From Pararhodobacter oceanensis (lineage in GTDB: Bacteria > Pseudomonadota > Alphaproteobacteria > Rhodobacterales > Rhodobacteraceae), in assembly GCF_003076755.1 (NCBI RefSeq), contig NZ_QDKM01000011.1:1-64000 (forward strand): 64,000 bases of DNA, written 5' to 3'. The first letter of the stretch is position 1. Each line of letters opens with the position of its first letter. Under the pieces are notes generated by a model that was given only the letters and a program-made list of their open reading frames with translations, had not been told where the DNA came from and made no database searches. Below are positions 36,070 to 55,486 of the stretch, in pieces. The position numbers were made by a program, and so were the translations under genes.

Positions 36070-36602
36070 TGGCCTGACGCAGCGCTGTTCAGGGCGACCA
36101 GCGGCGGTTCTGTGGTCGGTGGGTTGTGAGATCAAACCGGCGATGGTTTCGACGCTGCGCCTATGCCGTTTCTGCGAACTGCAAATGGTGGGCTAAGCAC
36201 CAATCCAGCCTCAAAGCAAACCAAGGGCGCGGTTTAACTTGGTTCGGGGATCGGGCATTATTTTCCCATGTTCTGCAGAGAGATGGCACAATCGCTAACG
36301 CCCCGCTCGCAAAGGTTGCTGCGGCGGGCGGTTGGTATTCCAACCCGCTTTACCGGAGGTGCCCGCTCTGATGCAGGTCTGAGGCGGGAGGGTCTTTCAC
36401 CATCTATGCACCCTGCATTTATTGGCGCAGTCCGAGATCGGCCTCAATGATGCTTCGGCATCATTAACAATGCTAATTCAATAAAATTATTGACGGCGAT
36501 GTGGTGGTTCCTTAGGGTGGACGGACATCGAGACGGGGGTGCGTCTTGGCGTGAACAGGTTCCAGATGCCCCCGTCACGGCAGCACCAAGACAGAGGGCA
36601 GA
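36070..36602. other. Intergenic region upstream of the reductive dehalogenase gene
   Basis: No gene is supported in these 533 bp. It contains the shared palindromic element (36446-36465), a second AT-rich palindrome CAATAA-AA-TTATTG (36479-36492), a possible -10 TAAAAT (36482-36487), and an alternative TTGACG-N17-TAGGGT pair (36490-36518). The long region suggests regulated expression of the gene at 36603. Confidence 0.5.
36446..36465. promoter_or_regulatory. Shared operator element upstream of rdhA
   Basis: AATGATGC-TTCG-GCATCATT is a perfect 8-bp inverted repeat. The same 20-bp design recurs before the P450, SulP, marR2/sulfatase and purU genes. It lies about 147 bp before the rdhA ATG. 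With two MarR genes nearby it is a likely MarR operator. It could fold as a hairpin, but no T-run follows and no gene ends here. Confidence 0.7.
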
Positions 36603-39600
36603 ATGACGTCTCAGATTTTCTCCACCCGTGGCAGGCCCTTCCACCTTGGTTCGTTTCCGTTGGAGCGGCTTGCGCGGCGCGATCAGGCCGCCGACCTCTC
36701 GGGCACGCCGCCATTCGATCCCGTTTCCTTCGATCACACAACGACCCCGCGATCGCTGGTCAATGCGATGCGGGACTATCAGGCGATGCTGGATGTTCTG
36801 CGTGGTGGACTGCCGTCCGCGCAAAAAGCGGGCTGCCCCGATGATCCGCAAGAACGCGCGCGCCACATTAAGTCTTATGGCTATTTTCAAAACGTTCCGA
36901 TGGTGGGAATTGGCCGGTTTGACAGTAGTTTGAAGCTTGAACAGCCCTTCGCCAATCCAGAAATCGACCGGCTGGCCGAGGACCTGAAGACCAAGCAGGT
37001 CAAGTCGCTGGCGTCCGGTATTGACGTGATCATGGCCGATCTCAAGGAAAGCGTGTCGGCGCCGCCGCAGCCGGTGGATGGCCACACGCACGCCATTGTC
37101 TTTCTCTATAACTACAATCGCGATCCGGCGCCGGATGAACCCGGATATTCCTGGATAGGTGATGCCCAGGCCCAGAGAGCCTGTCTGCTCGGGACCGAAG
37201 CCGCGGTGGTTATCGCCAGCTATTTGCGCATTCTTGGCTATGATGCCAAGGCGCATAGCGGCGCCTCCAGCGAAGTCGATCTGAACAAGCTGGCTGTCGC
37301 GGCGGGTCTGGCCGTCGTCGAGAATGGCAAGCTGGTAAATCCCTTTGTTGGTGAGCGGTTCCAACTGGTGGCGATAACGACGAATTTCAACATGGCAACC
37401 GACAAGCCGCTGGCCCCGATGGCCGAACAGCCGAAGGACCTGATGCGCGGGTGGGCGTGGAAGCTGGGAAAGGGCTCTGCCAAGAATGGCCGCACGCTCG
37501 ATCCCTATGCCAAGCGGCGCTACACTGACGGGCTGCATCCTTTTGAAAAGCTCCGCCGCGTCGACAAGCCGACGACCTTTATTGATGAAGAACGGGTTGC
37601 GCGGGTGCCCAAGCGCGCCGATATGTTCGTCCGCTCGCAGTTTGGCGATATGGGCAAGATAAACCAAGACGCTGCGACCGGAGGATACTTCACACGAAAA
37701 TCGCCGATCAGTCAGGCATCGAAACGCCCGATGGGCGCCTTTAACCTGCTATTGGATAGCCCTGTCGCCGATACGGTTGACGAAAGTGCGCGCGACCGCC
37801 GCGCAAACCACGAGGCGATCAAGGCGATCGGCTATTTCCTCGGGGCGGATGCCGTGGGGGTTGCGCGCTGCCCTGAATGGGCATGGTATTCGCATGATGC
37901 CTTGGGTGAGCCGATTGTGCCAACCCAAGACAGCGCCATCTGCCTGATCATTGATCAGGGGTTCGACACCACCGAAGGCTCGTCTGGTGATGACTGGATT
38001 GCCGTGGCGCAATCGATGCGCGCCTACCTGCGGTTTTCCCTGCTCGGTGGCGTGATCGCCGCACAGATCCGCAACCTTGGCTATACCGCAAAGGCGCATA
38101 CCAACCAGAGCAGCGAAGTGCTGCATCCACCGCTGCTGTTGCTGGCCGGGTTGGGCGAGGTCAGTCGCATTGGCGAGGTGATCGTGAACCCGTTTCTGGG
38201 GCCGCGGCTGAAATCCGGCATCATCACCACAGATATGCCACTGACCCACGACAAGCCGGTGGATTTCGGCATGCAGGCGTTCTGCGAAAGCTGCAACAAA
38301 TGCGCGCGCGAATGCCCCTCGGGCGCGATCACTGCCGGTCCCAAGTTGATGTTCAACGGCTATGAGACCTGGAAGAGCGACAGCCAGAAATGCACCACCT
38401 ACCGCATTACCCAGAAGGGCGGGGCAATGTGCGGGCGCTGCATGAAGACCTGCCCGTGGAACATGGAGGGGCTGGAACATGAAAAGCCGCTTCGGTGGAT
38501 TGCGATGAATGTGCCCGCGATGGCCGGTGTTTTGGCCAAGGCCGATGACCTTGTCGGCAATGGCCGGATCAACCCCAAAAAGCGCTGGTGGTGGGATCTG
38601 CGCTGGAACCGCGATGGCTCTTGCGAGATGGTCGATCAGACGGTGCAGCCGTCGAATTACCGTGAGTTGCAGACCGACCTGAAGCTGGATTTCGAGGATC
38701 AGACGCTGGCGGTTTATCCGGCCAATCTTGCCCCGCATCCCTGGCCATTCCCCTTTCCGATGGACCGTGAAAAGGGCATCGAGGCCTATCAGGCGATGAT
38801 CACCGCCGAGGAATATCAGGCGCGGCTGGACCGGGGCGACACCGAGGGGCTAGCGCATGAATACAAGTTGAGTGGCGAGGCGCCGGTGATCCGGGTGCAG
38901 GTCTCCAAGGTTGACCAGATGACGCCGGGGGTCACCAAATACGAGTTCACCGCGCTGGGTGGTGAGCCGCTGCCGGAATGGACGGCGGGCGCGCATCTGG
39001 ATGTCGTGGTCGCGCCTGAATATTTCCGTCAGTATTCGATGTCTGGCGATCCGGCGGACCGTTCGAAATACCAGATCGGTGTGCTGCGCGAGGACGAAGG
39101 CCGTGGCGGCTCGAAACTGTTGCACCGCATTTTTGCCGAGGGGCGCAAGCTCTTTATCTCGAAGCCGATCAACCATTTCCCGCTGTCCAAAGACGGCAGC
39201 AAACATTTTTTGATGGGGGGCGGGATCGGTATCACGCCGATGATCGCCTTTGCCCATGAATGCCACCGCGAGGGGCTGGACTTTGAATTGCACTATTCGG
39301 CGTCAAGCCGCGCCAGCGCCGGGTTTCTTGATGATCTCGCCGGGTTTCCCTGGGCAGATAAGGTGCATCTGCATTTCTCTGACGAAGGCTCGCGGGCCGA
39401 TCTGGATGCGGTGTTGTCGGGGTATGAATCCGGATGGCATGTCTATACCTGCGGGCCGGACCGATTCATGACCTCGGTGATGGATGCGGCGGAACGGCAG
39501 GGCTTTCCGGAAGAGGGGCGGCATCTGGAGTATTTCTCGGTGCCGGAGCTGCCCGAGTATGAGAACCATGAGTTCACGGTGAAACTGGCGCGCAGTGGCA

Positions 39601-39833
39601 AGGAGCTTAAAATCCCTGCGGATAAGGCGGCGACCGAGGTGCTGCTGGAAAACGGCGTGCAGATCGACGTGAAATGTTCCGACGGGATCTGCGGCGTGTG
39701 CAAATGCGGATTGCTGGCCGGCGAGGTCGAACATCGTGATTTCGTGCTGTCGAATGCGCAGCGCGAAACGGCGATCATCCTGTGCCAAAGCCGGGCGGCG
39801 AAACCCGGCGGGACCATCGAAGTTGATCTTTAG
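36603..39833 (+). CDS. rdhA: Self-sufficient reductive dehalogenase (RdhA-reductase fusion)
   Basis: 1076 residues. Residues 1 to about 720 are a cobalamin-dependent reductive dehalogenase domain, with two 4Fe-4S sites: CESCNKCARECP (C561, C564, C567, C571) and C597 with CGRCMKTCP (C610, C613, C617). From about 765 on there is a phthalate dioxygenase reductase-type module: FMN site RQYS (809-812), NAD(P) site GGGIGITPM (872-880), and a plant-type 2Fe-2S site (C1025, C1030, C1033, C1061). There is no twin-arginine signal, so it is cytoplasmic and catabolic, unlike the RdhA of organohalide respirers. This is the BhbA/NpRdhA class that removes halogen from halophenols or hydroxybenzoates using NAD(P)H. 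Substrate here is unproven. Confidence 0.93.
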   Translation: MTSQIFSTRGRPFHLGSFPLERLARRDQAADLSGTPPFDPVSFDHTTTPRSLVNAMRDYQAMLDVLRGGLPSAQKAGCPDDPQERARHIKSYGYFQNVPMVGIGRFDSSLKLEQPFANPEIDRLAEDLKTKQVKSLASGIDVIMADLKESVSAPPQPVDGHTHAIVFLYNYNRDPAPDEPGYSWIGDAQAQRACLLGTEAAVVIASYLRILGYDAKAHSGASSEVDLNKLAVAAGLAVVENGKLVNPFVGERFQLVAITTNFNMATDKPLAPMAEQPKDLMRGWAWKLGKGSAKNGRTLDPYAKRRYTDGLHPFEKLRRVDKPTTFIDEERVARVPKRADMFVRSQFGDMGKINQDAATGGYFTRKSPISQASKRPMGAFNLLLDSPVADTVDESARDRRANHEAIKAIGYFLGADAVGVARCPEWAWYSHDALGEPIVPTQDSAICLIIDQGFDTTEGSSGDDWIAVAQSMRAYLRFSLLGGVIAAQIRNLGYTAKAHTNQSSEVLHPPLLLLAGLGEVSRIGEVIVNPFLGPRLKSGIITTDMPLTHDKPVDFGMQAFCESCNKCARECPSGAITAGPKLMFNGYETWKSDSQKCTTYRITQKGGAMCGRCMKTCPWNMEGLEHEKPLRWIAMNVPAMAGVLAKADDLVGNGRINPKKRWWWDLRWNRDGSCEMVDQTVQPSNYRELQTDLKLDFEDQTLAVYPANLAPHPWPFPFPMDREKGIEAYQAMITAEEYQARLDRGDTEGLAHEYKLSGEAPVIRVQVSKVDQMTPGVTKYEFTALGGEPLPEWTAGAHLDVVVAPEYFRQYSMSGDPADRSKYQIGVLREDEGRGGSKLLHRIFAEGRKLFISKPINHFPLSKDGSKHFLMGGGIGITPMIAFAHECHREGLDFELHYSASSRASAGFLDDLAGFPWADKVHLHFSDEGSRADLDAVLSGYESGWHVYTCGPDRFMTSVMDAAERQGFPEEGRHLEYFSVPELPEYENHEFTVKLARSGKELKIPADKAATEVLLENGVQIDVKCSDGICGVCKCGLLAGEVEHRDFVLSNAQRETAIILCQSRAAKPGGTIEVDL

Positions 39834-39888
39834 ACCTTAACGGGGTGACCCGCGTCGTTTTTTGCAGGCTGACGCGGCGCGCCGGGTG

Positions 39889-40356
39889 TTAGCGGGCAAA
39901 ATGGACGCGAAGACGTTCAAAACACTCGGTCAGGGCATTACACAGGTCATCCCCCAAACACGCGCGCACCGCGTCTTGACGGGCTTTGAAGCGTATGTCC
40001 ACTTCGCCCAGTTTGACACGACCGGCCTCGGTCAGAACCACCATCTTGCGTCTTTGGTTGCCGGGATCGGACTCGAATTCCACCAACCCCCGGCTGCGAA
40101 GATTGCTGGCCGTTCGGCTGATCTGGGCATTGTCAGTCACCATATGGCGGGCGAGATCGGCCATCGAGATCCGCTCAAAGGTTTCGACGGTGCGCAACAC
40201 CCGAAACGCCGTCAAATTCAGGTCGCTGCCTTGCAAATGCTCGATGGCATCCAGCTCCATCAGTTTGGCGACATTTCCAAACTGGAAGGTGACATTGCTT
40301 TCCAGCTTCTTCACCCGTTCGAGTTGCAGTTCCAGTTGCTTGGCGGTCATGGCCAT
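39889..40356 (-). CDS. MarR family regulator (marR1)
   Basis: 155 residues from ATG at 40356, marked by an AGGAGAG ribosome site; a longer frame to 40410 is less likely. The winged helix is seen in RISMADLARHMVTDNAQISR, followed by the DPGNQRRKMVVLTEAG wing. The N-terminal helix (QLELQLERVKKLESNVTF) is shared with the second MarR at 45680 (QLERVRALESRLTF), so the two are paralogues. It is convergent with rdhA and probably regulates it in response to a phenolic ligand. Confidence 0.9.
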   Translation of the reverse strand: MAMTAKQLELQLERVKKLESNVTFQFGNVAKLMELDAIEHLQGSDLNLTAFRVLRTVETFERISMADLARHMVTDNAQISRTASNLRSRGLVEFESDPGNQRRKMVVLTEAGRVKLGEVDIRFKARQDAVRACLGDDLCNALTECFERLRVHFAR

Positions 40357-40392
40357 GACGATCTCTCCTGAAATGGCTTTGTCCCTGCAAGT

Positions 40393-40418
40393 ATAACATT
40401 GCGCAGGCATTGCACCAG
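40393..40418. promoter_or_regulatory. Weak copy of the shared element before marR1
   Basis: CATTGC-GCAG-GCATTG has the TGC-N4-GCA core and spacing of the shared element, but its outer arms differ. It lies about 40 bp before the marR1 ATG. It may serve autoregulation. Confidence 0.3.
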
Positions 40419-40613: not shown

Positions 40614-40701
40614 GTGATATTCGTGGCGAAAGCGAGCAGAGGCTTTGACCGTGCCGAAAAGCCCGCGGAGCCTCGGCTGCCTGGTATCAGCCGCGCTGGG
40701 A

Positions 40702-41658
40702 CTATTCGGAGGTGGCCTCAATCAGAGCTTGGGCTTCCTCGGTCGCGGCACGCATCAGCGTGGCGAGGTCTTCGCCCTGCACCACCAGCGTCCCGCCAAA
40801 GGCGCGTTGTGCAAATTGCGCTGTCCGGCTTTCGGGATCGTTCAGCACGTCCTCGATTGCCGCTGCCAAGGCCGTATGCGCGTCTTGCGGAAGATTTGCC
40901 GGCGCAATCACCAAGAAGCGGGAGCCGAAGGTGAAGGGCACCCCGAATTCAGACAGCAAGGGGGCGTCAGGCGAGAAGGGGAGCGGGACGGTTTCGGCTG
41001 AAGCGAGGCTAACGAGAGACCCTGCTTCGACGCCCTGCGCCTGAATGCCAGCGGCCCATGCAACGTCGAGATCGCCCGCCACAACGCCGTTCAAGCCGCC
41101 GCGTCCGCCTTGCACCGTGACCGAGGTCAGCTCGATGTCGTTGTTTCTGGCGATCACATAGGTTCCGTCGGCAAGGTTCGGCGCCATGGCACCGACGGAA
41201 ATCCGCTCACCGGCTCTGGCTGCGGCGATGACGTCTGCAAGGCTTTCCCAGCCGCGATCCGCTCGGGCGATCAACCCCGTCTGGCTGCCAGCCAAGGTCG
41301 ACAGATAGGTGAAATCATCCACCGAATAGGGTGGGGTCTGGGCCACAAGCGGCACGTAGGCGACCGACGGTTGAACGGTTATCCCGATGGTCAAACCATC
41401 GGCGGGTTTGGTGAGAAGCTCGCTTGCCATTGCGGCGCCACCGCGGCCGGGCAAGTTCTGGGGAATGAACTCCCACCCCCGGGATGAGGCAAGATCCTCG
41501 GCCAGCGCCCGCCCGAGCGTATCCGCGCCGCCGCCCGCGCGGAACGCAATCATCAGGTCGATCGGACCGGAAGGGGTCCAGTCATCGGCCATGGCGCTCT
41601 GGCCGATGAGCGCAAGCATCAACCCTGCGGTGGCTGCCTTCATAAAGCGAAATCCCAT
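40702..41658 (-). CDS. tctC: Tripartite tricarboxylate transporter binding protein (TctC/Bug)
   Basis: 318 residues with signal peptide (about 1-24, ending SAMAD). The Bug-fold pattern is present: PIDLMIAFRAGGGADTLGRALAEDL, then PGRGGAAMASELL and the GGLNGVVAGDLDVAW hinge. It captures a carboxylate or other anion in the periplasm for a TctAB permease. The only TctAB genes in the window are at 48.2-50.4 kb, where the local tctC copy is broken, so this protein may serve that permease. TctC-like proteins are known next to BhbA-type dehalogenases. Start ATG follows a GGAGGAG ribosome site. Confidence 0.9.
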   Translation of the reverse strand: MGFRFMKAATAGLMLALIGQSAMADDWTPSGPIDLMIAFRAGGGADTLGRALAEDLASSRGWEFIPQNLPGRGGAAMASELLTKPADGLTIGITVQPSVAYVPLVAQTPPYSVDDFTYLSTLAGSQTGLIARADRGWESLADVIAAARAGERISVGAMAPNLADGTYVIARNNDIELTSVTVQGGRGGLNGVVAGDLDVAWAAGIQAQGVEAGSLVSLASAETVPLPFSPDAPLLSEFGVPFTFGSRFLVIAPANLPQDAHTALAAAIEDVLNDPESRTAQFAQRAFGGTLVVQGEDLATLMRAATEEAQALIEATSE

Positions 41659-43334: not shown

Positions 43335-43354
43335 AATGATGCATATGCAACTAT
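43335..43354. promoter_or_regulatory. Shared operator element upstream of the P450 gene
   Basis: AATGATGC-ATAT-GCAACTAT. The first arm is identical to that upstream of rdhA and the spacing is the same. In the direction of the P450 gene a GTGACA hexamer follows three bases after the element. Confidence 0.65.
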
Positions 43355-43397
43355 AAAGAAGATCATGCACCAAAACGGGCGCGTGTGATGCAAAGAT

Positions 43398-45221
43398 CTA
43401 GCGCGCGTCGAATGGTGCGTCCTCCGGCGCTCGCGGCTCATCATGCGCTGGCTCTTGCACCCTCGGGCCCGGCTTTCCGGCGCATTCGTGGAAGATACGG
43501 GCCGTGCAGCTGCGACAGATCTCGTCATCGACTTTGTCAACGGCGTGCCGGATCGCATCCGACTTGGTGAAATGCACGTGATCCGCGCCGACGGCTTCGA
43601 ATACATGCAACCGACGCAAGGCATCGCGGGCCGATTTATGCGACGCGATGAGGTGATAATCCTGTCCCCGCCGGCGTGCTGTGCGGCATTCGGTGATGAT
43701 GAAATCAGCACCGGTCAAATCGATTTTGCCGACGCCTTTCAGGTTCAAGACGGTGCCGCGTTTCCGCCCGAAATGATCTTCGATCTCGCGAAATTTTTCC
43801 TCCACATGTTCGACCGAGCCAAAGAACAGCGGTCCCTCGATCCTGAGATTTGCGATCTGCGGACACTCTGTAAGATTGTAGGTAAAGACGTTGCGAAAGA
43901 CCCTGCGGCCATCCTTTTCCATCGGCGCGCCAACACCTATCGAGGGACGGGCGCTTTTGTTGATGAAGACCGCAAGCGACACCAACACGCCGACCAGGAT
44001 CGCGAAATCAAGCTCGGATAGCACGCCGGTGAGAAATGTGGCCAGCAGGATCAGTGTTTCGCTGCGGCTGGTGGTCACGATGTGTCGGATCTCGGCGATG
44101 TTCACCAGTTTGAACGCGACATAGAGAATGATCGAAGCCATGGCGGCGACGGGCACGAAGCGAACCAGCGGCGCCACAAGAAACAGGCCCGCCAGAAGCA
44201 TGGCCGCTGCGAATAGCGCCGCCATCGGGGTTCGCGCGCCGCTTTCCGCATTCAGGCCCGAGCGGGTGAAAGACCCTGAGCCCGCATAGGACTGAAGGAA
44301 CGACCCGGCCATGTTGGACAGGCCTTGGCCGACAATTTCCTGATTGGAATCGTAGCGCTCACCGCGGCGCAGGGCAAAAGACTTGCCGATGGAAATCGCC
44401 TCGAGCAGGCCGACAAAGGCAACGGCGACAGCGCCGGGGAATAGCTCGCCCATGATGGATAGCGACAGATCGGGGACAGCGACCGCCGGGACAACGCTTG
44501 CAAGCGGCTGGAAGAATTTCAGGTCCGAGGCATCGCCGCCCAGCAGCCAAGCGGCCAGACTTCCGGTGAAAAGAGCCAGAATATAGGCCGGAATCCGTTT
44601 GTCGATCCTGACAACAAGCAAAATCGTCGCCAAGGTCACGAGCGAAACCACCACAGCAGAGAGATTGGCCTCGCCGCTATGGGCCACCACCCGTTCAAAC
44701 CTCTCGAACGCGCCGCCACCGCCTGCGATTGTCAGGCCAAGGGCGCCGGATAGCTGCGACGTCGCGATCAGCAATGCCGCCGCCGCGGTGAAGCCGATGA
44801 CCACCGAATGCGAAACAAAGGCAATCAATCCGCCCATACCGGCCAGCCCGGCCATAAGTTGCAACGCGCCGACCATCAACGTCAGGACCAGAGCCAGAGC
44901 GATAAATTCCTCGGTGCCAGCCGGAGCAAATTGCGACAGGGTGGTAAAGACCACAGCCGAGATTGCCGTGGTGGGGCCGGATACCATGACCATGGACGCC
45001 CCCCAAACCGCTGCGACGGCACAGACGGCGATGGCGGTGAAGAGCCCGTATTCCGGCGGCAATCCGGCGATAATCGCAAAGGCGACGCCTTGCGGCAGCA
45101 CAATTGCCGCGTTGGTCAGCCCGGCCAGCGCATCATCGCGAAGACTGTCAGCCGACACATCCCTAAACCAAGGGCGCAGCGGTGACAGGCGGCGAAGCGA
45201 TTTTTGGAGCAATGGTGACAT
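43398..45221 (-). CDS. SulP family anion transporter with STAS domain
   Basis: 607 residues from ATG at 45221 (GGAAG ribosome site). About 12-14 helices cover residues 25-430 with the SulP signatures NAAIVLPQGVAFAIIAGLPPEYGL and SGSFTRSGLNAESGARTPM. A STAS domain follows (about 455-550, GTVLNLKGVGKIDLTGADF). The last 50 residues are an extra tail with a small Cys cluster (CRSCTARIFHEC). SulP proteins move sulfate, bicarbonate or organic anions. With two sulfatases in the same apparent regulon, sulfate handling or uptake of a sulfated anion is plausible. Confidence 0.92.
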   Translation of the reverse strand: MSPLLQKSLRRLSPLRPWFRDVSADSLRDDALAGLTNAAIVLPQGVAFAIIAGLPPEYGLFTAIAVCAVAAVWGASMVMVSGPTTAISAVVFTTLSQFAPAGTEEFIALALVLTLMVGALQLMAGLAGMGGLIAFVSHSVVIGFTAAAALLIATSQLSGALGLTIAGGGGAFERFERVVAHSGEANLSAVVVSLVTLATILLVVRIDKRIPAYILALFTGSLAAWLLGGDASDLKFFQPLASVVPAVAVPDLSLSIMGELFPGAVAVAFVGLLEAISIGKSFALRRGERYDSNQEIVGQGLSNMAGSFLQSYAGSGSFTRSGLNAESGARTPMAALFAAAMLLAGLFLVAPLVRFVPVAAMASIILYVAFKLVNIAEIRHIVTTSRSETLILLATFLTGVLSELDFAILVGVLVSLAVFINKSARPSIGVGAPMEKDGRRVFRNVFTYNLTECPQIANLRIEGPLFFGSVEHVEEKFREIEDHFGRKRGTVLNLKGVGKIDLTGADFIITECRTARRRGQDYHLIASHKSARDALRRLHVFEAVGADHVHFTKSDAIRHAVDKVDDEICRSCTARIFHECAGKPGPRVQEPAHDEPRAPEDAPFDAR

Positions 45222-45249: not shown

Positions 45250-45278
45250 GTTATCCCAGATGCACCTATTTTGGTCAA
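45250..45278 (-). promoter_or_regulatory. Sigma-70 promoter of the SulP gene
   Basis: On the minus strand TTGACC (45278-45273), 17 bp, then GATAAC (45255-45250), 28 bp before the start codon. The shared element ends four bases upstream of the -35 hexamer. Confidence 0.6.
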
Positions 45279-45282
45279 TAAT

Positions 45283-45302
45283 AATGATGATGTCGCAACA
45301 AT
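45283..45302. promoter_or_regulatory. Shared operator element upstream of the SulP gene
   Basis: AATGATGA-TGTC-GCAACAAT matches the P450 copy at 14 of 16 arm positions. It sits directly upstream of the SulP promoter -35. Confidence 0.65.
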
Positions 45303-46157: not shown

Positions 46158-46177
46158 CTTGTTGATTTATCATCATC
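46158..46177. promoter_or_regulatory. Shared operator element between marR2 and sulfatase genes
   Basis: Read on the minus strand: GATGATGA-TAAA-TCAACAAG. This keeps the ATGATG core, the 4-bp spacer and the CAAC core of the other copies. Four bases downstream, in the sulfatase direction, the -35 of a good promoter begins. Confidence 0.55.
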
Positions 46178-46181
46178 AATG

Positions 46182-46210
46182 TTGCTTGAGCTTGATCTAG
46201 ATGATATCAC
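46182..46210 (+). promoter_or_regulatory. Sigma-70 promoter of the sulfatase-TctBA operon
   Basis: TTGCTT (46182-46187), 17 bp, TATCAC (46205-46210), 44 bp before the GTG start. The arrangement of element, 4 bp, -35, 17 bp, -10 is the same as at the SulP gene. Confidence 0.55.
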
Positions 46211-46254: not shown

Positions 46255-47691
46255 GTGGTGAAAACCCCGAAAAACATACTGTTTCTGATGGCGGACGAGC
46301 ATCAAGCCGGTGCGTTGTCGGTCCTTCACCATCCTCATGTGCAAACGCCAAACCTTGACCGACTCGCCGCGCGCGGCAGCGTTTTTCTCAATGCCTATAC
46401 CGCCAGCCCGATCTGCGTCCCCGCCCGTGCGGCCGTGGCGACCGGCCGGTATCCGCATGAAACCGGCTATTGGGACAATGCGCTGGCCTATGACGGGCGC
46501 TTTCCAAGCTGGGGCCATATTCTGCAGGCGGGCGGTGTTTCGGTGACCAGTATCGGCAAGTTGCACTACCGCAATTCCGAAGATCGCACCGGTTTCGACC
46601 AGCAGATCCTGCCGATCCATATTCTGAACGGCATTGGCCAAATATGGGGCTCGGTGCGCAATCCTCTGCCAACAAAAAGCAAGGGCGGCAGCATGCTGGG
46701 CGGCATTGGCGCCGGCGTGTCGAAATACAACCTCTATGACATGGAGGTCGCCAATGCGGCGGTGGACTGGCTCAACATGCCGGCCCGGACCGAGGCGCCT
46801 TGGGCGGCATTCGTCAGTTTCGTGGCGCCGCATTTCCCGCTGATTGTGCCCGAGGAATATCTGGACAAATACCCGGCCCAAGACATGCCGCTGCCCGCAG
46901 TAAGGCCGGGAATTGATGGCTATGAAGCGCATCCTTGGGTCGCGCGGATGAACGATATCGAAGACAGCGATGCCGAGTTGGGCAGCGATCAACGCCGGCG
47001 CGAGGCGATCGCGGCCTATTATGCGCTGTGCAGTTTTGTCGATCAGCAGATCGGCAAGGTTCTCGATGCACTCGACGCCTCGGGGCAGGGCGATGACACG
47101 CTGATCATCTATACATCGGATCATGGCGAGAACCTCGGGATGCGCGGGCGCTGGGGCAAATCGCTGCTCTACCGTGAAGCGACTCAGGTGCCGTTGATCA
47201 TGGCCGGGCCGGGCATTGCCGCGGGCGCGCAGGTGACCACGCCGGTGTCGCTGGTCGATATCCCGCCGACAATCACAGATGCCTTCGGACTGCCGCCAGA
47301 CCCTGATTGGGCGGGGCGGTCGCTGACGGACATTGCCGCCGAGCCCGCGGACCCCAGGCGCGTGGTGTTCGCCGAATATCACGCGGTCAATTCGCCAAGC
47401 GGCGGCTTTATGGTCGCGGATGCGGGCTGGAAGTATCACGAATATATCGGCTACGCGCCCGAGCTTTTCGACTTGGAGAGCGACCCGTTGGAACGGCACA
47501 ATCTTGCCGGTGATCCGGCATATGCGGCGCAAGAGGCGCGGATGCGCAAGGCCCTGCATGCGATCTGTGATCCCGCGCGTGTCGATGCCAGCGCCAAGGC
47601 CGATCAAGACAGGTTGGTGGCAGGTTTTGGCGGGCCGGAAAAAGCCTTTCGCATCGGGCCATCCGGCGCCACGCCGGCCCCCGGACCCTGA
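46255..47691 (+). CDS. Sulfatase, first of two
   Basis: 478 residues from GTG at 46255. The type I sulfatase signature C-x-P-x-R is intact as CVPAR (C54 to R58), followed by the TGRYPHETG stretch. C54 would be converted to formylglycine by a separate enzyme not seen here. Metal ligands lie in LMADEH (D14) and TSDHGENLG. No signal peptide, so it acts in the cytoplasm on an imported sulfate ester; choline-sulfatase-like enzymes are the nearest recognised type. The operon continues with broken tctC, tctB, tctA, usp, a second sulfatase and a hydroxyacid oxidase. Confidence 0.92.
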   Translation: MVKTPKNILFLMADEHQAGALSVLHHPHVQTPNLDRLAARGSVFLNAYTASPICVPARAAVATGRYPHETGYWDNALAYDGRFPSWGHILQAGGVSVTSIGKLHYRNSEDRTGFDQQILPIHILNGIGQIWGSVRNPLPTKSKGGSMLGGIGAGVSKYNLYDMEVANAAVDWLNMPARTEAPWAAFVSFVAPHFPLIVPEEYLDKYPAQDMPLPAVRPGIDGYEAHPWVARMNDIEDSDAELGSDQRRREAIAAYYALCSFVDQQIGKVLDALDASGQGDDTLIIYTSDHGENLGMRGRWGKSLLYREATQVPLIMAGPGIAAGAQVTTPVSLVDIPPTITDAFGLPPDPDWAGRSLTDIAAEPADPRRVVFAEYHAVNSPSGGFMVADAGWKYHEYIGYAPELFDLESDPLERHNLAGDPAYAAQEARMRKALHAICDPARVDASAKADQDRLVAGFGGPEKAFRIGPSGATPAPGP

Positions 47692-47721: not shown

Positions 47722-48156
47722 ATGAATTCCGAAACGTCCAAACGCAGGGCCGCTGCGTCTGCCATGATTACCGCGGCGACTGGCGTTCAGGCGCAGGTTT
47801 CGGCGCCGAGAGGCCCTGACGAGGTGCTGTTTGCCCTGTCAGGCGGTGGAGTGACGGAGACGCTGGGCTGCAGGCTGGCCGAGGAGGTTAGCGCAGACAA
47901 GACCACGTCCGAACACGCTGCGGGCAAGGGCAGTCAGATCATGGCGGTGGCGCTCAGGGATGCCCAGACAGAAGCGGCGCGGGCGCGCGCAATCCCTCAG
48001 CGGCACAAGGTGAAGACCCTGAATAACGCAGAAGGAAAACTGGTCCGAAGCGCACAGCGGGCCTTTGCTATGCCGGTCGCGGGGCAGGGTGCGGAGGCGT
48101 TCAGTCTGGAATGCCATGCCGCCGACACCCCGCTGCCCGACGCCGTCGCCGAATAA
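47722..48156 (+). pseudogene. Internally deleted tctC remnant
   Basis: 144 residues after a very strong GAGGAGGAG ribosome site. The first 85 residues follow the TctC pattern (SGGGVTETLGCRLAEEV, AAGKGSQIMAVALRDA) as in intact TctC proteins of about 320 residues. The middle 200 residues are missing, and the short tail (AQRAFAMPVAGQGAEAFS) resembles a TctC C-terminus. The gene stands exactly where a tctC belongs, before tctB and tctA. It cannot form a ligand-binding cleft, so it is probably a decayed gene, unless it now makes a short periplasmic peptide. The intact TctC at 40.7 kb may have taken over. Confidence 0.6.
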
Positions 48157-48217: not shown

Positions 48218-48793
48218 ATGCTGTCTCGACGTATCGAAATCTGGCTTGCCATATTCTTTGCCGTCCTTGCCGGGCTGACCGCCTTTGTCTGGGCGCCGCT
48301 CGACAGTGAAACCGCCGCGATCTATGAATTTCGCAGGCAGATCAGCATCGGTGACGCGATGCTGCCGATGGTCGCCGGGGGCGGGATTCTGCTGTTTTCG
48401 GTGGCGCATCTGTTTTTGCAACTACGCCGTCGGCGGGATGCGGATGAAGACCCGCTGTTTGATCGCACCACGCTGTTCTTCTTTGTGACCTTCGGCGGCG
48501 TATTGGCGCTGTCTTTGATCCTGATGTTCTGGGCAGGTCCGCTGGCGCTGGCCCTGTTCGGACCATCGGGTGACGACGCCGCGACCTATCGACAGATGCG
48601 GTCGAGCTTACCTTGGAAATACATCGGGTTCGTGCTCGGCGGCTTCACGCTGGTCTTTGGACTGACCTCGCTTATCGAAGGCCGGGTGCGATGGCTGCGG
48701 GCGGTCAGTTCGATCCTCGCCGTGCTGGGTCTCATCCTCATTTTTGATGTGCCATTCGACACGATTCTCCTGCCTCCGAATGGAGATTTTTGA
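48218..48793 (+). CDS. tctB: Tripartite tricarboxylate transporter small permease TctB
   Basis: 191 residues from ATG at 48218 (GGGAG ribosome site). Four helices with the TctB layout are at about residues 8-28, 48-68, 88-112 and 130-180. It forms the small membrane subunit with TctA, whose start overlaps its stop (TGATG). Sequence identity in this family is low; the call rests mainly on the place directly before tctA. Confidence 0.85.
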   Translation: MLSRRIEIWLAIFFAVLAGLTAFVWAPLDSETAAIYEFRRQISIGDAMLPMVAGGGILLFSVAHLFLQLRRRRDADEDPLFDRTTLFFFVTFGGVLALSLILMFWAGPLALALFGPSGDDAATYRQMRSSLPWKYIGFVLGGFTLVFGLTSLIEGRVRWLRAVSSILAVLGLILIFDVPFDTILLPPNGDF

Positions 48794-50397
48794 TGTCCCC
48801 GCTTGAATATATCTGGGCCGGTGTCATGGCCGTCATCGCCGGGCCTGCTGCGTTCGAGATCTTCGGGATCGGCATTCCGCTTACTGTCCTGATGGTGTTT
48901 GGCGGTTTCCTGCTTGGCGTCGTCGGCGGCGCGACACCGGGGTTGGCCGGTCCCTTTCTGATGGCGGTGTCGCTGCCGATCCTGCTGTCGATCTTTGGCT
49001 TTACGCCAGATGCCCTGCTGCCGGTGATGGGCTTTCTTGTCGGCGTGATGAAGGGCGCAACGGTCGGCGGCGCGGTGCCCGCGATCCTGTTCAACACGCC
49101 GGGCACGCCTGATGCGATGATGACCACGCTCGACGGCTACCCGATGGCGCAAAAGGGGCAGGCGGGCAAGGCTCTGAGGACCGCGCATTTCGCATCGGTG
49201 TCTGGCGACACGTTTTCCGACCTTGTGCTGTTTACCTGCGCTCCGTTCCTCGCGGTGATTGTCGAAGCCTATCTGGGCTTTGGCGAAAAGGCGGCGCTGA
49301 TCGTTTTGTCGATGGCATTCATCGCTGCCGTGGTCGGTGCATCGCCGTTGAAAGGTATGATTGCCGCCTTTCTCGGGCTGTTGATCGCCTCCATTGGCAC
49401 GGGCGAGGATTTTTACGCGCGCCTCTCTTTCGGCACCGATGCTCTGGCAGATGGCGTGCCGATGATCACTGCCGTTATGGGCGTTTTGATACTCGGAGAA
49501 GTGCTGGTCGCATTTGAGAACATGTGGCGCCAGCGGCGCAGCAATGCTGTGGTCAAAGAACCGGCGCAGTCCGGTGACAATCGCCTGTCCTGGACAGAGC
49601 GAAAGGCTTTGATGCCCTTCATCGGCATCTCGGCTGTCGTCGGCACGATCATTGGCGCCTTGCCGGGCATCGGATCGACTTTGGCGGCGACACTTGGCTA
49701 TGCCACGGGTGACAAAATGCACAAGGGGCCGGTGAAATTCGGTCAGGGCACGCCCGAAGGCATCGCCGCAACCGAAGCCGCCAATAGCGCGGTCTCCGGC
49801 TCCAATCTGATACCGGTGCTGTCGCTCGGCATTCCGGGCAATGTGGGCGCGGTGTTCATCATCCTGGCAGCCGAATCCATCGGCGGCTTCAACCCGGGAC
49901 CGACCGTGTTTCGGTTCACCGCATCCGAGGTGAACCCAGAGCTGGTGATCGCCTTCGGCCTGTTTACCGCGATGATGATTGCCAATATCTTCAACTGGGT
50001 GATCGGCGGCCGGATCATGGCCGCCTGCGGTATCATGTCGAAAATACCCAGCCATGTGCTGCTGCCGATGGTGTTGTTGCTGACCCTGACGGCGATCTAT
50101 GCGCAGGAAACCAGTTTCACCGCAATCTACTTTGCCTTGGCCTTCGCGGTGCTCGGGTATCTTCTGCGTAAGCTGAGAATACCGACGCTGCCGTTCGTGA
50201 TTGCTTTCATTCTGGCCGGAAACCTTGAGCATTCGTTCCGGCAGGCTTTCGCAGTCTCGGGCGGCGATCCGTGGTTCCTGTTCAAGAGCCCGCTGTCGCT
50301 GGTCTTCCTGCTTTTGTCGGCGGCGGTGGTGATTTTCTTCTCCCGCTCGAAAACCCCTGAGGCCGGCAGACGCGCCGCAACAGAAAGGGATCTGTGA
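48793..50397 (+). CDS. tctA: Tripartite tricarboxylate transporter large permease TctA
   Basis: 534 residues with about 12 helices. The family glycine-rich motif is present in the first half (FLLGVVGGATPGLAGPFLMA and FNTPGTPDAMMTTLDGYPMA) and repeated in the second (IGALPGIGSTLAATLGYATG, LSLGIPGNVGAVFI). The transporter imports an anion captured by a TctC protein. Its operon partners (two sulfatases and a hydroxyacid oxidase) suggest a sulfated or hydroxy-acid-bearing substrate. Confidence 0.93.
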   Translation: MSPLEYIWAGVMAVIAGPAAFEIFGIGIPLTVLMVFGGFLLGVVGGATPGLAGPFLMAVSLPILLSIFGFTPDALLPVMGFLVGVMKGATVGGAVPAILFNTPGTPDAMMTTLDGYPMAQKGQAGKALRTAHFASVSGDTFSDLVLFTCAPFLAVIVEAYLGFGEKAALIVLSMAFIAAVVGASPLKGMIAAFLGLLIASIGTGEDFYARLSFGTDALADGVPMITAVMGVLILGEVLVAFENMWRQRRSNAVVKEPAQSGDNRLSWTERKALMPFIGISAVVGTIIGALPGIGSTLAATLGYATGDKMHKGPVKFGQGTPEGIAATEAANSAVSGSNLIPVLSLGIPGNVGAVFIILAAESIGGFNPGPTVFRFTASEVNPELVIAFGLFTAMMIANIFNWVIGGRIMAACGIMSKIPSHVLLPMVLLLTLTAIYAQETSFTAIYFALAFAVLGYLLRKLRIPTLPFVIAFILAGNLEHSFRQAFAVSGGDPWFLFKSPLSLVFLLLSAAVVIFFSRSKTPEAGRRAATERDL

Positions 50398-51221: not shown

Positions 51222-51231
51222 GGAGGCCCCG

Positions 51232-52758
51232 ATGACCCGGCCCAATTTCCTGATCATTAGTGCCGACCAGCATCGCGGCGATTGTCTCGGTGTCGAAGGT
51301 CGCAAGGTCCGCACGCCCAATCTCGACCGCTTGGCGCGGGACGGGACCCGCTTTACGGCGGCGATCTGCCCGTCGCCGGTCTGTCAGCCAGCGCGGGCCT
51401 CGATCCTGACCGGTCAGCTGTGCCGGACCCACGGTGTCCATGACAACGGCATCGACCTTGACGCGGATACCGGCGATATGGGGTTTGCCGGAACCTTGGC
51501 CCGCGCCGGATATGACACCGGGTTTTTCGGCAAGGCGCATTTCTCCAGCTATGATGCGCGCGACCCTACCGGGCGGCCCGAGTCGGTTCTGTCATCGGTA
51601 GATTTTGGCCCGGAATGGACAGGTCCCTATATGGGGTTTGGCCATGTTGAACTCATGCTCTCGGGCCCGACCAACCATCCCCCGCTGGCGCCGCCTCAGG
51701 GGTTGCATTACGAGCATTTCTTTTATGCCGACGGCCATGGCGCCGAGAAAACGCGGCTGTATCACGAGGGCCGCGGTGATACCAAAAATGCGGCCCAGAC
51801 ATGGCATTCGCAACTGCCGACAAACTGGCATTATACGCCATGGACGGCCGATCGGGCGATGGACTGGCTGCGCCAAGCCCGCGACACTGACCGCCCGTTC
51901 TGCGCTTGGGTCAGTTTCGTTGATCCACATCACCCTTTCGACTGCCCCGAACCTTGGTCGCGATTGCACGACCCGGCCGAGGTCGATTTGCCCGCACACC
52001 GGACCCGAGATCTCGACAAGCGTCCGTGGTGGCACCGCGCCGCAATTGAGAACTCTCCTAAGGGCGATGCCGCCGAGGTTGCGGTCAGGTCCAATTACTC
52101 ACGGATCGAGCCACAGACCGACGACCAGCTGCGTGAGATCATCGCCAATACCTATGGCCAGATCGCCTTTATCGACGAACAAGTGGGCCGCATCCTGACC
52201 TTGCTGGACGAGGCCGGATTGGCCGAGAATACCATCGTCATCTATACCTCGGATCACGGCGACTGGCTTGGCGATCACGGGCATATACTCAAAGGCCCGA
52301 TGCCCTATGAGGGGCTGTTGCGTGTGCCGTTTCTGGCCAAGGGGCCCGGTGTCCGTGCGGGCGCGGTGGTGGGCGAGCCGGTATCAACACTCGATATTGC
52401 AGCGACGCTTTACGACTATGCCGGGGTCACGCCCGGCCTACCGCAGCACGGTCAGTCCCTGCGCCCGCAGTTTGAAAGCGATGCGGCGCGCGATTTTGCG
52501 ATGATGGAGTGGGAGCTTTTGCCCAACCGTGTCGGCGTGGCCCTGTCGTTGCGCACAGTGCGCACCAAGGACGCCAAACTGACCGTCGAACTGCGTTCCG
52601 GTGCGGGGGAGATGTATGATCTGGCTGCCGACCCGCACGAGATGACGAACCTGTTTGACCATCCTGATCACGCAGACATGCAGGAGGCGCTGACCGCCTA
52701 TTTGCACGCGCGTGCGAATGACATCGGACCCAATAGAACAGCAGTGGGGCCAGGATGA
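51232..52758 (+). CDS. Sulfatase, second of two
   Basis: 508 residues from ATG at 51232 behind a GAGGAGG ribosome site. C-x-P-x-R is intact as CQPAR (C51 to R55) after a typical N-terminus (NFLIISADQHRGDCLG), and the metal site TSDHGDWLGDHG is present. No signal peptide. It differs from the first sulfatase in the substrate-contact regions (long aromatic-rich insert around HYEHFFYADGHG), so the two probably act on different positions or compounds. Both need formylglycine formation by an enzyme elsewhere in the genome. The stop overlaps a 36-codon ORF. Confidence 0.93.
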   Translation: MTRPNFLIISADQHRGDCLGVEGRKVRTPNLDRLARDGTRFTAAICPSPVCQPARASILTGQLCRTHGVHDNGIDLDADTGDMGFAGTLARAGYDTGFFGKAHFSSYDARDPTGRPESVLSSVDFGPEWTGPYMGFGHVELMLSGPTNHPPLAPPQGLHYEHFFYADGHGAEKTRLYHEGRGDTKNAAQTWHSQLPTNWHYTPWTADRAMDWLRQARDTDRPFCAWVSFVDPHHPFDCPEPWSRLHDPAEVDLPAHRTRDLDKRPWWHRAAIENSPKGDAAEVAVRSNYSRIEPQTDDQLREIIANTYGQIAFIDEQVGRILTLLDEAGLAENTIVIYTSDHGDWLGDHGHILKGPMPYEGLLRVPFLAKGPGVRAGAVVGEPVSTLDIAATLYDYAGVTPGLPQHGQSLRPQFESDAARDFAMMEWELLPNRVGVALSLRTVRTKDAKLTVELRSGAGEMYDLAADPHEMTNLFDHPDHADMQEALTAYLHARANDIGPNRTAVGPG

Positions 52759-52865
52759 CAGTCCCGACAGGCCAGCTTTGCGACGGTATCGGCGCGCCAG
52801 ATGTGCGAGCGGGGGCAGATGCGGCGGCGAAGCTCAATTCCGGCAAGCTATTGGAGCAGGGTTGA
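52755..52865 (+). CDS. Possible 36-residue peptide ORF
   Basis: ATG at 52755 overlaps the sulfatase stop by ATGA, and its own TGA (52863-52865) is followed at once by the ATG of the hydroxyacid oxidase gene. The peptide starts MTVPTGQLCDGIGAPDVRA. The perfect fit at both ends suggests translational coupling through this stretch. No family is recognised. It could be only a coupling leader. Confidence 0.35.
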   Translation: MTVPTGQLCDGIGAPDVRAGADAAAKLNSGKLLEQG

Positions 52866-54002
52866 ATGGCAGGTCCCGAAACGCACTATCCCGCGCTGGC
52901 CTATATGATCGACCGCGCCCGACGCCGCGTGCCGTATTTTGCCTGGGAATATCTGGCCAGTGGCACGGGTGCGGAACGCCTGATCGGTGACAACCGCGCG
53001 GCGCTTGACCGGATTTCGCTGGCCCCGAAAGTGGCGCAGGGGCGGTTTCAGCCGGACACCAGCACCCGCCTGTTTGGCCAGAGCTTCAGCGTGCCCTTCG
53101 GCGCAGGACCCGTTGGCATGTCGGGTCTGATCTGGCCCGGTGCCGAGTTGATCCTTGCCAAGGCCGCGCGCGCGAACGGCTTTCCCTATACACTCAGTAT
53201 GGTGGCCAATGAAACGCCCGAAGCGGTTGCCGAAACCGGTGGCAAAAACGCCTGGTTCCAGCTTTATCCGCTCAAAGAACGCGAGATCGAAGACGATCTG
53301 CTGGGCCGTGCCGCCGCCGCCGGAATTCGCACGCTGGTGGTCACGCTGGATGTGCCGGTGGGAAGCCGCCGAGAGCGCCAACTGGCGGCGGGCCTGACGG
53401 TGCCGCCCAAGATTACGCCATTGACCCTGTGGCGCGTGGCGCAACGACCACATTGGGCTCTGGCCACCCTGCGACACGGTCAGCCGAGGTTTCGAACGCT
53501 GGAGACCTATTTCCCGTCTTCGGCGATGGCGGACAGCGCCAAGATGGTCGGCACCATTGTCGATGGGCGCCCCGATTGGGCGACCGTCACCCGGCTGCGG
53601 CAGCAATGGCAGGGCAATCTGGTGATCAAGGGCATATTGAGTGCAGATGAAGCCGAGCAAGCCATTGATTGCGGGGCGGATGCGGTGGTTGTGTCCAATC
53701 ATGGCGGACGGCAGTTCGATGCCGCGCCTGCGTCAATCGACGCATTGCCTGCGGTGGCGGAGAAAGTGGCCGGGCGCGTGCCGGTGTTGTTTGATAGTGG
53801 TGTGCTCTGGGGGCTGGACATCCTGCGGGCGTTGTCGCGCGGCGCGGATTTCTGCCTGCTGGGCCGAGGGTTTCTATATGCGGTGGCCGCGCTCGGGGCG
53901 GAGGGTGGCAACCATGCCTATTCGGTCCTGAAGCAGGATCTCGAAACCAACATGATACAGATGGGCGCTAGAACGATCGGGGACGTGACGGGGCAGCGGT
54001 GA
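52866..54002 (+). CDS. FMN-dependent 2-hydroxyacid oxidase/dehydrogenase
   Basis: 378 residues, full length for the L-lactate/mandelate dehydrogenase and glycolate oxidase family. Catalytic residues are present: the YFAWEYLASGTG opening, K255 in VIKGI, H279 in SNHGGRQFD, and the FMN phosphate region ALSRGADFCLLGRGFLYA. It oxidises an alpha-hydroxy acid to the keto acid. In this operon it may act on a mandelate- or lactate-like side chain of an aromatic substrate. The ATG directly abuts the preceding ORF stop; a GGAG ribosome site lies within that ORF. Confidence 0.9.
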   Translation: MAGPETHYPALAYMIDRARRRVPYFAWEYLASGTGAERLIGDNRAALDRISLAPKVAQGRFQPDTSTRLFGQSFSVPFGAGPVGMSGLIWPGAELILAKAARANGFPYTLSMVANETPEAVAETGGKNAWFQLYPLKEREIEDDLLGRAAAAGIRTLVVTLDVPVGSRRERQLAAGLTVPPKITPLTLWRVAQRPHWALATLRHGQPRFRTLETYFPSSAMADSAKMVGTIVDGRPDWATVTRLRQQWQGNLVIKGILSADEAEQAIDCGADAVVVSNHGGRQFDAAPASIDALPAVAEKVAGRVPVLFDSGVLWGLDILRALSRGADFCLLGRGFLYAVAALGAEGGNHAYSVLKQDLETNMIQMGARTIGDVTGQR

Positions 54003-54157
54003 TGGCCTTGGCAAAGGGGCCCGGAAAGGGCCTGGCACGGGCCGTCATGGTTGCGCTTTCTGTTCAGTGGGGTTGGGCGTCGTTGCTCTTGGCCAGCGGC
54101 TGTGTATTTGCGGGGGCGTTCGCAACATCAGCCAGCTTGCGTCCGCTTAGCCCATGA
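54002..54157 (+). CDS. Possible 51-residue membrane peptide
   Basis: ATG at 54002 overlaps the hydroxyacid oxidase stop (TGATG). The frame gives 51 residues: a basic N-terminus (MALAKGPGKGLARA) then a 30-residue hydrophobic stretch. It overlaps the end of purU on the other strand by 11 bp. The coupling and membrane-like composition are suggestive, but there is no family match and it may be chance. Confidence 0.35.
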   Translation: MALAKGPGKGLARAVMVALSVQWGWASLLLASGCVFAGAFATSASLRPLSP

Positions 54158-55034
54158 GTTCAGAGGAGAAGCTGCCGGGAGAGGCGGGGAATACCACTGT
54201 TTTGCTGCCATTGATGAAACTCCGGTGATGGGCATGCGCGTGGATGGCGCGTGCAAGCACGATAGCCTCAACATCTCGCCCCAAGGCCACGTAATCTGAG
54301 GGTGATTGGGCATGCGTCACACGGACGATATCTTGCTCAATGATCGGCCCTTCATCAAGATCAGCGGTGACGTAATGCGACGTCGCGCCGATGAGTTTTA
54401 CACCGCGCAGATGGGCCTGTTTGTAAGGGTTGGCACCTTTGAAACTGGGCAGGAATGAATGATGGATGTTGATAATTCTGCCCGACATCTTCTGGCACAT
54501 CTCATCCGAGAGAATCTGCATATAGCGTGCCAGAACAATCAGATCGGCGCCGGTGTCGTTGACGATCTGCATGATCTGGGCTTCGGCATGGGGCTTGTTT
54601 TCTTTTGTCTCCGGGATGTGGTGGAACGGAATATCTTGGTTCACGACGACCTTCTGATAGGTCATGTGGTTTGAAATAACGGCGACGATTTCAACCGGAA
54701 GCGCACCAATGCGGGCGCGATACAGCAGGTCGTTCAAGCAATGGCCAAACCGCGACACCATCACCACAAGTTTCATCTTTTTTGACTGGTTATGAATCGC
54801 ATAAGTGGCATCGAGCTTTTTGACCGCGGCGGCGAATTCTTTCTTTAGCTTGTCGCGATTGCCGTTTGCCTCGACCGAGAAGCTAATTCTCATGAAGAAA
54901 CGTCCGGTTTCAAGGTCTTCATACTGCGAGCTGTCGGCGATGTTGCAGCCATTTTCGGCGAGCGTTGTGGAGATGAGCGCAACGATCCCGGGCTGCGCGG
55001 GACAGGTGAAGGTCAGGAAAAATCTCTCGGTCAT
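54147..55034 (-). CDS. purU: Formyltetrahydrofolate deformylase PurU
   Basis: 295 residues from ATG at 55034 (AGGAA ribosome site). An N-terminal ACT domain (FTCPAQPGIVALISTTLAENG) precedes the formyl transferase fold with INIHHSFLPSFKGANPYKQA and GATSHYVTADLDEGPIIEQD. PurU hydrolyses 10-formyl-THF to formate and THF. Next to an O-demethylase, MetF and a MetV-like gene, it would return THF to the cycle after one-carbon oxidation. A copy of the shared element lies upstream at 55203-55222. Confidence 0.93.
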   Translation of the reverse strand: MTERFFLTFTCPAQPGIVALISTTLAENGCNIADSSQYEDLETGRFFMRISFSVEANGNRDKLKKEFAAAVKKLDATYAIHNQSKKMKLVVMVSRFGHCLNDLLYRARIGALPVEIVAVISNHMTYQKVVVNQDIPFHHIPETKENKPHAEAQIMQIVNDTGADLIVLARYMQILSDEMCQKMSGRIINIHHSFLPSFKGANPYKQAHLRGVKLIGATSHYVTADLDEGPIIEQDIVRVTHAQSPSDYVALGRDVEAIVLARAIHAHAHHRSFINGSKTVVFPASPGSFSSELMG

Positions 55035-55486
55035 TGTCGTTCCTATCGTCCGGCACGGGACATTTTTGTGTAGGTTTCGCGTCCCAATCACACCGGCGTG
55101 CGACAGGCTGGGCTGGCGGGCGAATGCCAGCAGATCGCGTCAACTGCGCTCGGGTCCGAAGGCAGTGGCTGGCATGCGTGATCTCGCTTGGCTAGAATAT
55201 TGAATGATGCGTTGTCAACTATATTGTTGCGAGTGCCATGCGCCCTGGTCCCGAATAAGATGCCTTGGCGATGCCGCCAGTTCGGCGCAACACATGCTGC
55301 AATAGAGGCTCTCGCGCGGTGGCGTTCGGGTATCAGGCCGCGATCTGTTGCCGTTTTCCCTTTGCCATTGCCGCGTTGGGAGCACTTGACTTGCTGAATT
55401 GTGACATCGAAAACAAGCTGATCCAGATAGGTGCCAAGCACCAAGAGACCGATGATGCCAGTGATCAGGAAGGTCGAGGTGGACCA
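55035..55486. other. Divergent promoter region of purU and luxR-type gene
   Basis: These 452 bp hold no supported gene. The frame of the LuxR-type gene is open from 55265, but the part before 55487 has an unusual composition and no ribosome site. The shared element is at 55203-55222. Confidence 0.5.
55203..55222. promoter_or_regulatory. Shared operator element upstream of purU
   Basis: AATGATGC-GTTG-TCAACTAT matches the copy before the P450 gene at 15 of 16 arm positions. It lies about 170 bp before purU and 265 bp before the luxR-type gene, and links the one-carbon module to the dehalogenase regulon. Confidence 0.65.

Follow-up and report, generated by a model that had tools for sequence, protein, structure and literature searches.

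Dehalogenase, sulfatase and P450 genes of Pararhodobacter oceanensis share a composite operator that points to a MarR-type regulon

We analysed a 64,000-nucleotide stretch of the Pararhodobacter oceanensis genome (NCBI RefSeq assembly GCF_003076755.1, contig NZ_QDKM01000011.1, positions 1 to 64,000; hereafter the window), in which five copies of a 20-bp inverted repeat, or dyad, precede genes for a reductive dehalogenase (rdhA), a cytochrome P450, a SulP anion transporter, a sulfatase with its divergent neighbour marR2, and the pair purU/luxR. The sharing of this dyad is confirmed as real and more than chance, and by sequence the five copies appear to define a real regulon. A first-pass annotation had described the 20-bp unit as the operator; the unit is a real element but only one part of a longer composite operator, in which a third half-site directly adjoins the dyad and some sites have a complete second dyad. 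We consider it quite probable that a single MarR-family regulator, MarR2, acts at all five operators, most likely as a repressor.

Five promoters share a 20-bp dyad

Direct lookup of the window sequence confirmed all five dyads where the first-pass annotation had placed them. The copy ahead of rdhA is palindromic (AATGATGC-TTCG-GCATCATT, 36446–36465, plus strand) and lies 138 bp upstream of the rdhA ATG, and the P450 copy (AATGATGC-ATAT-GCAACTAT, 43335–43354, minus strand) is 43 bp ahead of the likely P450 start. The SulP copy (AATGATGA-TGTC-GCAACAAT, 45283–45302, minus strand) falls inside the longest open reading frame (ORF), yet about 62 bp ahead of position 45221, the likely start, so that the annotated placement upstream of all these genes holds with this proviso. 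The remaining copies occupy the divergent marR2/sulfatase 1 gap (GATGATGA-TAAA-TCAACAAG in the minus reading, 46158–46177, listed on the plus strand) and the purU/luxR gap (AATGATGC-GTTG-TCAACTAT, 55203–55222, minus strand). The consensus half-site of the core dyads is A-W-T-G-W-T-G-M, with a gap of 4 bp and a total length of 20 bp. Related operators were found in three loci from other bacteria: L126 on the Sulfitobacter mediterraneus M342 plasmid NZ_CP081110 (with the counterpart of the marR2/sulfatase 1 site at L126:14962), L130 in genome G243 of another genus, and L127 on a Sulfitobacter SK012 plasmid. The strand rule proposed for the asymmetric copies stood in that the KCATCATY half is gene-proximal at P450, SulP, sulfatase and purU, with the caveat that two of these sites lie between divergent genes, where orientation amounts to a choice of gene. 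Across the window four, L126, L130 and L127, this half is nearest the enzyme or transport gene at all seven asymmetric sites, a choice between divergent genes having been made in five.

The sites were recovered by several scans. A query with the rdhA palindrome allowing up to three mismatches recovered three of the five sites, against 0.41 expected. In leave-one-out matrices, the only window positions to outrank the held-out site were the four sites used for training and, for four of the five matrices, the rdhA palindrome read in reverse. A matrix built from the half-sites of the three outside operators (L126, L130, L127), and thus from no window data, returned exactly these five sites as the top N4 dyads of the window (25.1, 24.5, 19.5, 18.1 and 16.5; next 14.9). 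Random 64-kb sequences of window composition contained a mean of 0.28 sites matching the weakest (at least one in 45 of 200), and those with the AT-richer composition around the sites a mean of 0.75; lone weak sites could therefore arise by chance, five could not.

We then scanned the whole genome (4,082,209 bases, 4.08 Mb, in 32 contigs, the window included) with the strict pattern WWGWTGM-N4-KCAWCWW, which was composed after the window and outside sites had been seen, so that its recovery of the five is circular but its lack of other matches is not. It matched five times, at these sites and within 19 kb, whereas the backward control gave none. The first-pass annotation had expected hits only in this locus and at related catabolic genes; full matches were confined to this locus, and the contrary outcome, many equally good sites elsewhere, did not appear. 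With one mismatch allowed, 34 further places matched, near the background of 27 in the control, and the two one-mismatch genome matches of the first pattern used fall within ORFs. Elsewhere, strict matches numbered five in G243 (control none), of which the four beyond the L130 site all lie inside ORFs, two in same-genus G222 (control two) and one in G204 (control one); the SK012 plasmid that carries L127 had no strict N4 match.

The dyad is part of a composite operator

A second dyad was slid along the flanks of eight sites (the five in the window, L126, L130 and L127) at offsets of 9–60. An offset of 20 bp was the best of all, with a mean score of −3.6 compared with an all-offset mean of −24.2 (s.d. 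5.9) and −11.8 for the next. At this offset the whole second dyad scored above zero at sulfatase 1 (9.5), P450 (6.9), rdhA (2.6) and L130 (1.9). The inner, abutting half-site scored 12.7 at L130, 12.3 at sulfatase 1, 11.2 at both purU and L126, 5.2 at SulP, 4.0 at P450, 0.8 at rdhA and −6.5 at L127; it thus reached at least 11 in four of the eight sites and about 4 or more in six, levels attained by none and by 0.5%, respectively, of 4,848 local background 8-mers. When rdhA was omitted from the matrix, the next best sites of the window after the five were the abutting dyads at 36466 and 46178.

In the window, the highest-scoring second dyad abuts the marR2/sulfatase 1 operator (AATGTTGC-TTGA-GCTTGATC, 46178–46197, plus strand), followed by that at P450 (TTTGGTGC-ATGA-TCTTCTTT on the coding strand, 43355–43374, minus) and a degenerate one at rdhA (AACAATGC-TAAT-TCAATAAA, 36466–36485, plus). 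At SulP, only the inner half-site of the adjoining stretch (ATTATTGA-CCAA-AATAGGTG, coding strand; 45263–45282, minus) is good, and in the stretch next to the purU operator (55223–55242, minus) the inner half ATTGTTGC (55223–55230, read on the plus strand) is near-perfect. Half-sites that come in threes, and in some cases fours, in a 20-bp register fit, and this arrangement suggests, two MarR dimers bound end to end on the composite operator. The operator of MexR, a regulator of an efflux pump, likewise contains two neighbouring dyads of MarR type (GTTGA). In four of eight enzyme-gene readings (rdhA, SulP, purU and L130), the best predicted −35 element is a TTGACN that starts at register position 5, 25 or 45, with scores mostly in the random range. 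Separately, a long inverted repeat before tctC in a further locus (L129:6380–6419, AAGGTGGAAAAGTCAACGTT/CTTGTTGACTTTTCCACCAA) is likewise in 20-bp register.

MarR2 is the likely regulator

The product of marR2 (45680–46150, minus strand) is a winged-helix MarR protein (PF12802, E = 2e-10; PF01047, E = 7e-9). As in a MarR regulon, where inverted repeats of 16–20 bp are expected, five 20-bp N4 inverted repeats stand upstream of the putative target genes, and one of them adjoins the regulator gene, a placement kept in L126 and L130 that is compatible, by position, with autoregulation. Relatives of MarR2 are few: with at most nine candidates scored per genome, so that the family, order and class counts are lower bounds, they occurred at E 1e-25 in at least three of 394 family genomes (its own included) and, with a profile at E 1e-30, in at least three of 390 genomes in the order and at least one of 385 in the class. 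In the genus, a search at E 1e-20 found MarR2 in one of 18 genomes, its own (completeness is 90% or more for 12 of the 18). A plasmid search matched three Sulfitobacter records.

The operator is conserved beside such relatives, as the proposed scan of homologous loci revealed. The S. mediterraneus plasmid encodes a MarR2 ortholog (65% identity) in a syntenic marR2/sulfatase/TctCBA/Usp/sulfatase block (55–82% identity) adjoining genes for a formylglycine-generating enzyme and homogentisate metabolism, and carries the operator AATGATGC-AAAC-TCAACATA in the matching marR–sulfatase gap, the sole strict match on this 136-kb plasmid (the backward control also gave one). In L130, ATTGTTGA-CTTT-GCATCATT lies between a marR gene (product 40% identical to MarR2) and an HPPD-like gene, which a Rieske protein gene follows. 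Among seventeen query proteins, the MarR2 type alone is shared by the window and L130, which points to MarR2. Of the binders that the first-pass annotation had offered, namely either MarR protein or the LuxR protein, MarR2 is thus the likely one.

It is unlikely, in our estimate, that MarR1, alone or with MarR2, binds the sites, in which case tandem sites would hold one dimer per paralog. The marR1 gene lies within the locus, its product and MarR2 share 37% identity, and the nearest relative of MarR1 that was found, at L127, adjoins a dyad of similar half-sites; that dyad, however, has a gap of 5 bp (AATGATGA-TACAG-TCAACATT), and no N5 dyad in the window scores higher than 12.5, a background level. 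Moreover, no dyad above background was found at the marR1 start, and MarR1 and the L127 protein have DNAQISR where MarR2 and the proteins of L126, L129 and L130 have DRA. Binding and activation by the LuxR-type protein is much less probable still. One site does lie in the purU/luxR gap, and LuxR homologs (39–45%) adjoin rdhA in six of 110 rdhA loci, but the upstream stretches of those six rdhA genes lack the site (best 6.6, against 27.6 in the window), tblastn of about 25 kb at L126 and 20 kb at L130, where the operator is present, gave no LuxR homolog, and the dyad is similar to MarR operators in print, for instance that of CouR. LuxR was rejected as the binder because of the operators with no LuxR homolog in these searched stretches and the LuxR-adjoining rdhA loci without the site.

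Least credible of all is that the sites arose by chance or merely reflect low-complexity (ATG)n sequence. ATGATG runs in two of them do make the register ambiguous in an N7 scan, and random sequence of local composition yields occasional sites equal to the weakest, as given above; against this, the strict genome matches are clustered and lie ahead of genes, a matrix from other bacteria recovers all five, and the site is conserved at marR–sulfatase in Sulfitobacter.

Several observations nevertheless weigh against two MarR2 dimers at every site, or against MarR2 itself. Only four of the eight sites have a whole second dyad that scores above zero; the score is negative at purU (−3.2), L126 (−6.3), SulP (−14.8) and L127 (−25.7), and the third half-site at rdhA is weak, the lowest of the five window sites. 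Promoter predictions are mostly within the random range, with two of 13 readings above the random 90th percentile. The N4 operator is carried by just two outside loci; the L127 operator is of the N5 form and lacks the third half-site, different GTTGA repeats stand at tctC in L128 and L129 (in L129, not at marR), and at L142 (G557), which encodes a distant MarR relative, there is no operator near marR. By analogy with BhbR2, MarR2 may also work as an activator, and MarR1 could share the sites.

As an observation in its own right, the dyad at L127:11945–11965, between tctC and a MarR1-type gene (52%), shows that this half-site also occurs in a second class of spacing.

A proposed sulfated-aromatic regulon

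On the reading that MarR2 controls the five sites, we suggest that two MarR2 dimers would sit side by side on the composite operator, covering promoter elements, and would be released by an aromatic pathway intermediate or its thioester. The targets would be rdhA, P450, SulP, the sulfatase–Tct–Usp–sulfatase operon, marR2 itself and purU, and perhaps luxR–ligM–metF. In the pathway so controlled, Tct would import a sulfated aromatic acid, the sulfatases would strip the sulfate and SulP would move it, RdhA would remove the halogen, the P450 and the LigM-like protein would hydroxylate or demethylate the ring, and MetF with PurU would recycle methyl-tetrahydrofolate (methyl-THF). We infer binding, repression, inducer and substrate, the last being a presumed sulfated, halogenated and perhaps methoxylated phenolic acid. 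The mechanism would be that of a standard MarR regulon; the interest lies in the gene set, which is striking, and in the tandem operator, which is uncommon.

A broader proposal, which we advance tentatively and hold somewhat short of an even chance, is that a rare MarR subfamily, found here in only a few Rhodobacterales, reads end-to-end dyads in an exact 20-bp register through cooperative dimers, that the 4- or 5-bp gap tells paralogs apart, and that in this strain the subfamily governs an acquired pathway for sulfated, O-methylated and halogenated phenolic acids and has brought the widespread, otherwise free-standing rdhA under its control through the gain of an operator. If so, marine debromination would be sulfatase-coupled and inducible.

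The MarR2 regulon itself, if real, would join a reductive dehalogenase, two sulfatases, a P450, SulP and THF-dependent demethylation in one inducible unit. This would offer a testable route, with a named sensor, for marine bacterial use of sulfated bromophenol-like algal compounds, and an example of a widespread gene wired into a local regulon. One sulfated bromophenol, lanosol-4,7-disulfate, is described from a red alga (PMC9322897).

Comparison with known systems

CouR, a MarR repressor of p-hydroxycinnamate catabolism in Rhodococcus jostii RHA1, similarly comprises one MarR protein acting on several promoters of one aromatic pathway, with a site shared by the divergent couN/couR (PMC4737184). 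The CouR site, ATTGA-N5-TCAAT, differs from that of the window, which has a gap of 4 and a GWTGM half-site and so is not of the CouR type; the pathway is another one, and no abutting second dyad appears in the portion of that paper available to us. BhbR2 of Pigmentiphaga kullae H8, a MarR activator of 3-bromo-4-hydroxybenzoate genes, is likewise set over brominated-aromatic catabolism, but, unlike the proposed regulator here, it is an activator, with the site TTGATT-N5-AATCAA at one promoter, and the operon that its abstract gives, phbh2pcaB2pcaA2, includes no dehalogenase or sulfatase (PMC12016517). HmgS is a predicted MarR regulator of hmgAB in Alteromonadales and Pseudoalteromonadales (PMC5343134); genes of the homogentisate pathway are likewise found close to the MarR2 relatives at L126 and L130, a likeness of gene context. 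A literature search returned no publication that combines MarR, sulfatase, tripartite tricarboxylate transporter and Rhodobacteraceae.

Recruitment of rdhA and origin of the locus

The rdhA gene (36603–39833, plus strand) encodes a fusion of reductive dehalogenase, ferredoxin reductase and 2Fe-2S ferredoxin (TIGR02486, E = 3e-59; Fer2). This domain fusion places it in the self-sufficient catabolic type of BhbA and JtRdhA, with NADPH use presumed from the family. JtRdhA of Jhaorihella thermophila, a characterised enzyme that shares the fused reductase domain, debrominates the hydroxylated aromatic acids 3,5-dibromo-4-hydroxybenzoate and 3-bromo-4-hydroxyphenylacetate; the available text is an enzyme study in which no regulator is seen (PMC10463259). 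That bhbA homologs are spread through the Roseobacter clade has been published before, in a paper whose main text nowhere mentions sulfatase, regulator, MarR, P450 or gene cluster (PMC13101508).

RdhA is encoded in 149 of 394 family genomes. We scanned upstream of rdhA in 110 loci, 30 (the window's own included) plus 80 from genome contigs, some from the same genomes, some with upstream stretches cut by contig ends and one (L102) with its stretch misplaced at a contig end. The window scored 27.6 and the next locus 16.2, the latter a Ruegeria motif near −75; a general conserved site at rdhA was rejected, as no other rdhA promoter among the 110 loci carries the operator. Given how widespread the gene is and that the other promoters lack the site, rdhA was probably captured, and with its perfect palindrome it looks recruited into the cassette. 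A tblastn search at E 1e-10 covered the 80 named loci, many of which are truncated at contig ends. Near rdhA it detected no homolog of MarR1, MarR2, P450, SulP, PurU or LigM; it found sulfatase homologs (25–54%) in ten (L043, L048, L051, L101, L104, L106, L109, L113, L114 and L117) and LuxR homologs in three (L052, L068 and L118).

Three side observations concern rdhA elsewhere. Ruegeria loci (L049, L053, L061, L067, L100 and others) share a different element, like ATTTATGATTA-TTCATGAAT, about 75 bp upstream. LuxR-type genes (39–45% to the window LuxR) adjoin rdhA in L026, L030, L034, L052, L068 and L118 and may encode a separate rdhA regulator. In L043 and L048, a sulfatase and, by eye, an arylsulfotransferase-like protein are encoded beside rdhA, with apparent TRAP transporter genes.

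Searches of the genus's 17 other genomes found neither MarR2 nor sulfatase 2, as would be the case for an acquired cassette, with which the locus fits without this being proof. GC content is 0.597 in the 36–60 kb region against 0.637 before it and 0.599 after it, so that the right end is not marked by GC.

Other genes of the locus

Downstream of rdhA lie marR1 (39889–40350, minus strand) and a full-length tctC receptor gene (40705–41658, minus; 56% to the L126 TctC), which stands about 6 kb from the sulfatase operon, behind the P450 gene (42030–43292, minus); the SulP/STAS transporter gene (43398–45221, minus) follows. Across the divergent gap, sulfatase 1 (46255–47691, plus; 71% identical in L126) precedes an ORF with an apparent in-operon tctC remnant (47722–48156, plus; 43% over residues 27–86, 60 residues, of the L126 TctC), tctB and the tctA permease gene (48790–50397, plus), sulfatase 2 (51232–52758, plus; 82% in L126) and an FMN-dependent alpha-hydroxy acid dehydrogenase gene (52866–54002, plus). 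Beyond these are purU, for formyl-THF deformylase (54147–55034, minus; likely start 55034), luxR (55487–56281, plus; start uncertain, longest ORF from 55265), a LigM/DesA-like THF O-demethylase gene (56332–57711, plus; below the curated NCBIfam cut-offs of LigM and DesA), and a gene for an MTHFR C-terminal-domain protein (PF12225) with metF (57957–59617, plus). Together, the demethylase, MetF and PurU may serve to dispose of methyl-THF.

Both sulfatases have, by eye, the C-x-P-x-R motif of formylglycine sulfatases (CVPAR in sulfatase 1, CQPAR in sulfatase 2), and a maturation-enzyme homolog is encoded in the genome. This was the one formylglycine-generating enzyme homolog found at E 1e-10 (G000:C5:247929–248756, L160; 49%), on a contig other than that of the sulfatases. 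On other Rhodobacterales plasmids, a Tct–sulfatase–alpha-hydroxyacid-oxidase module occurs with LysR genes (L133 and L135) or with another MarR-family gene (L134 and L136).

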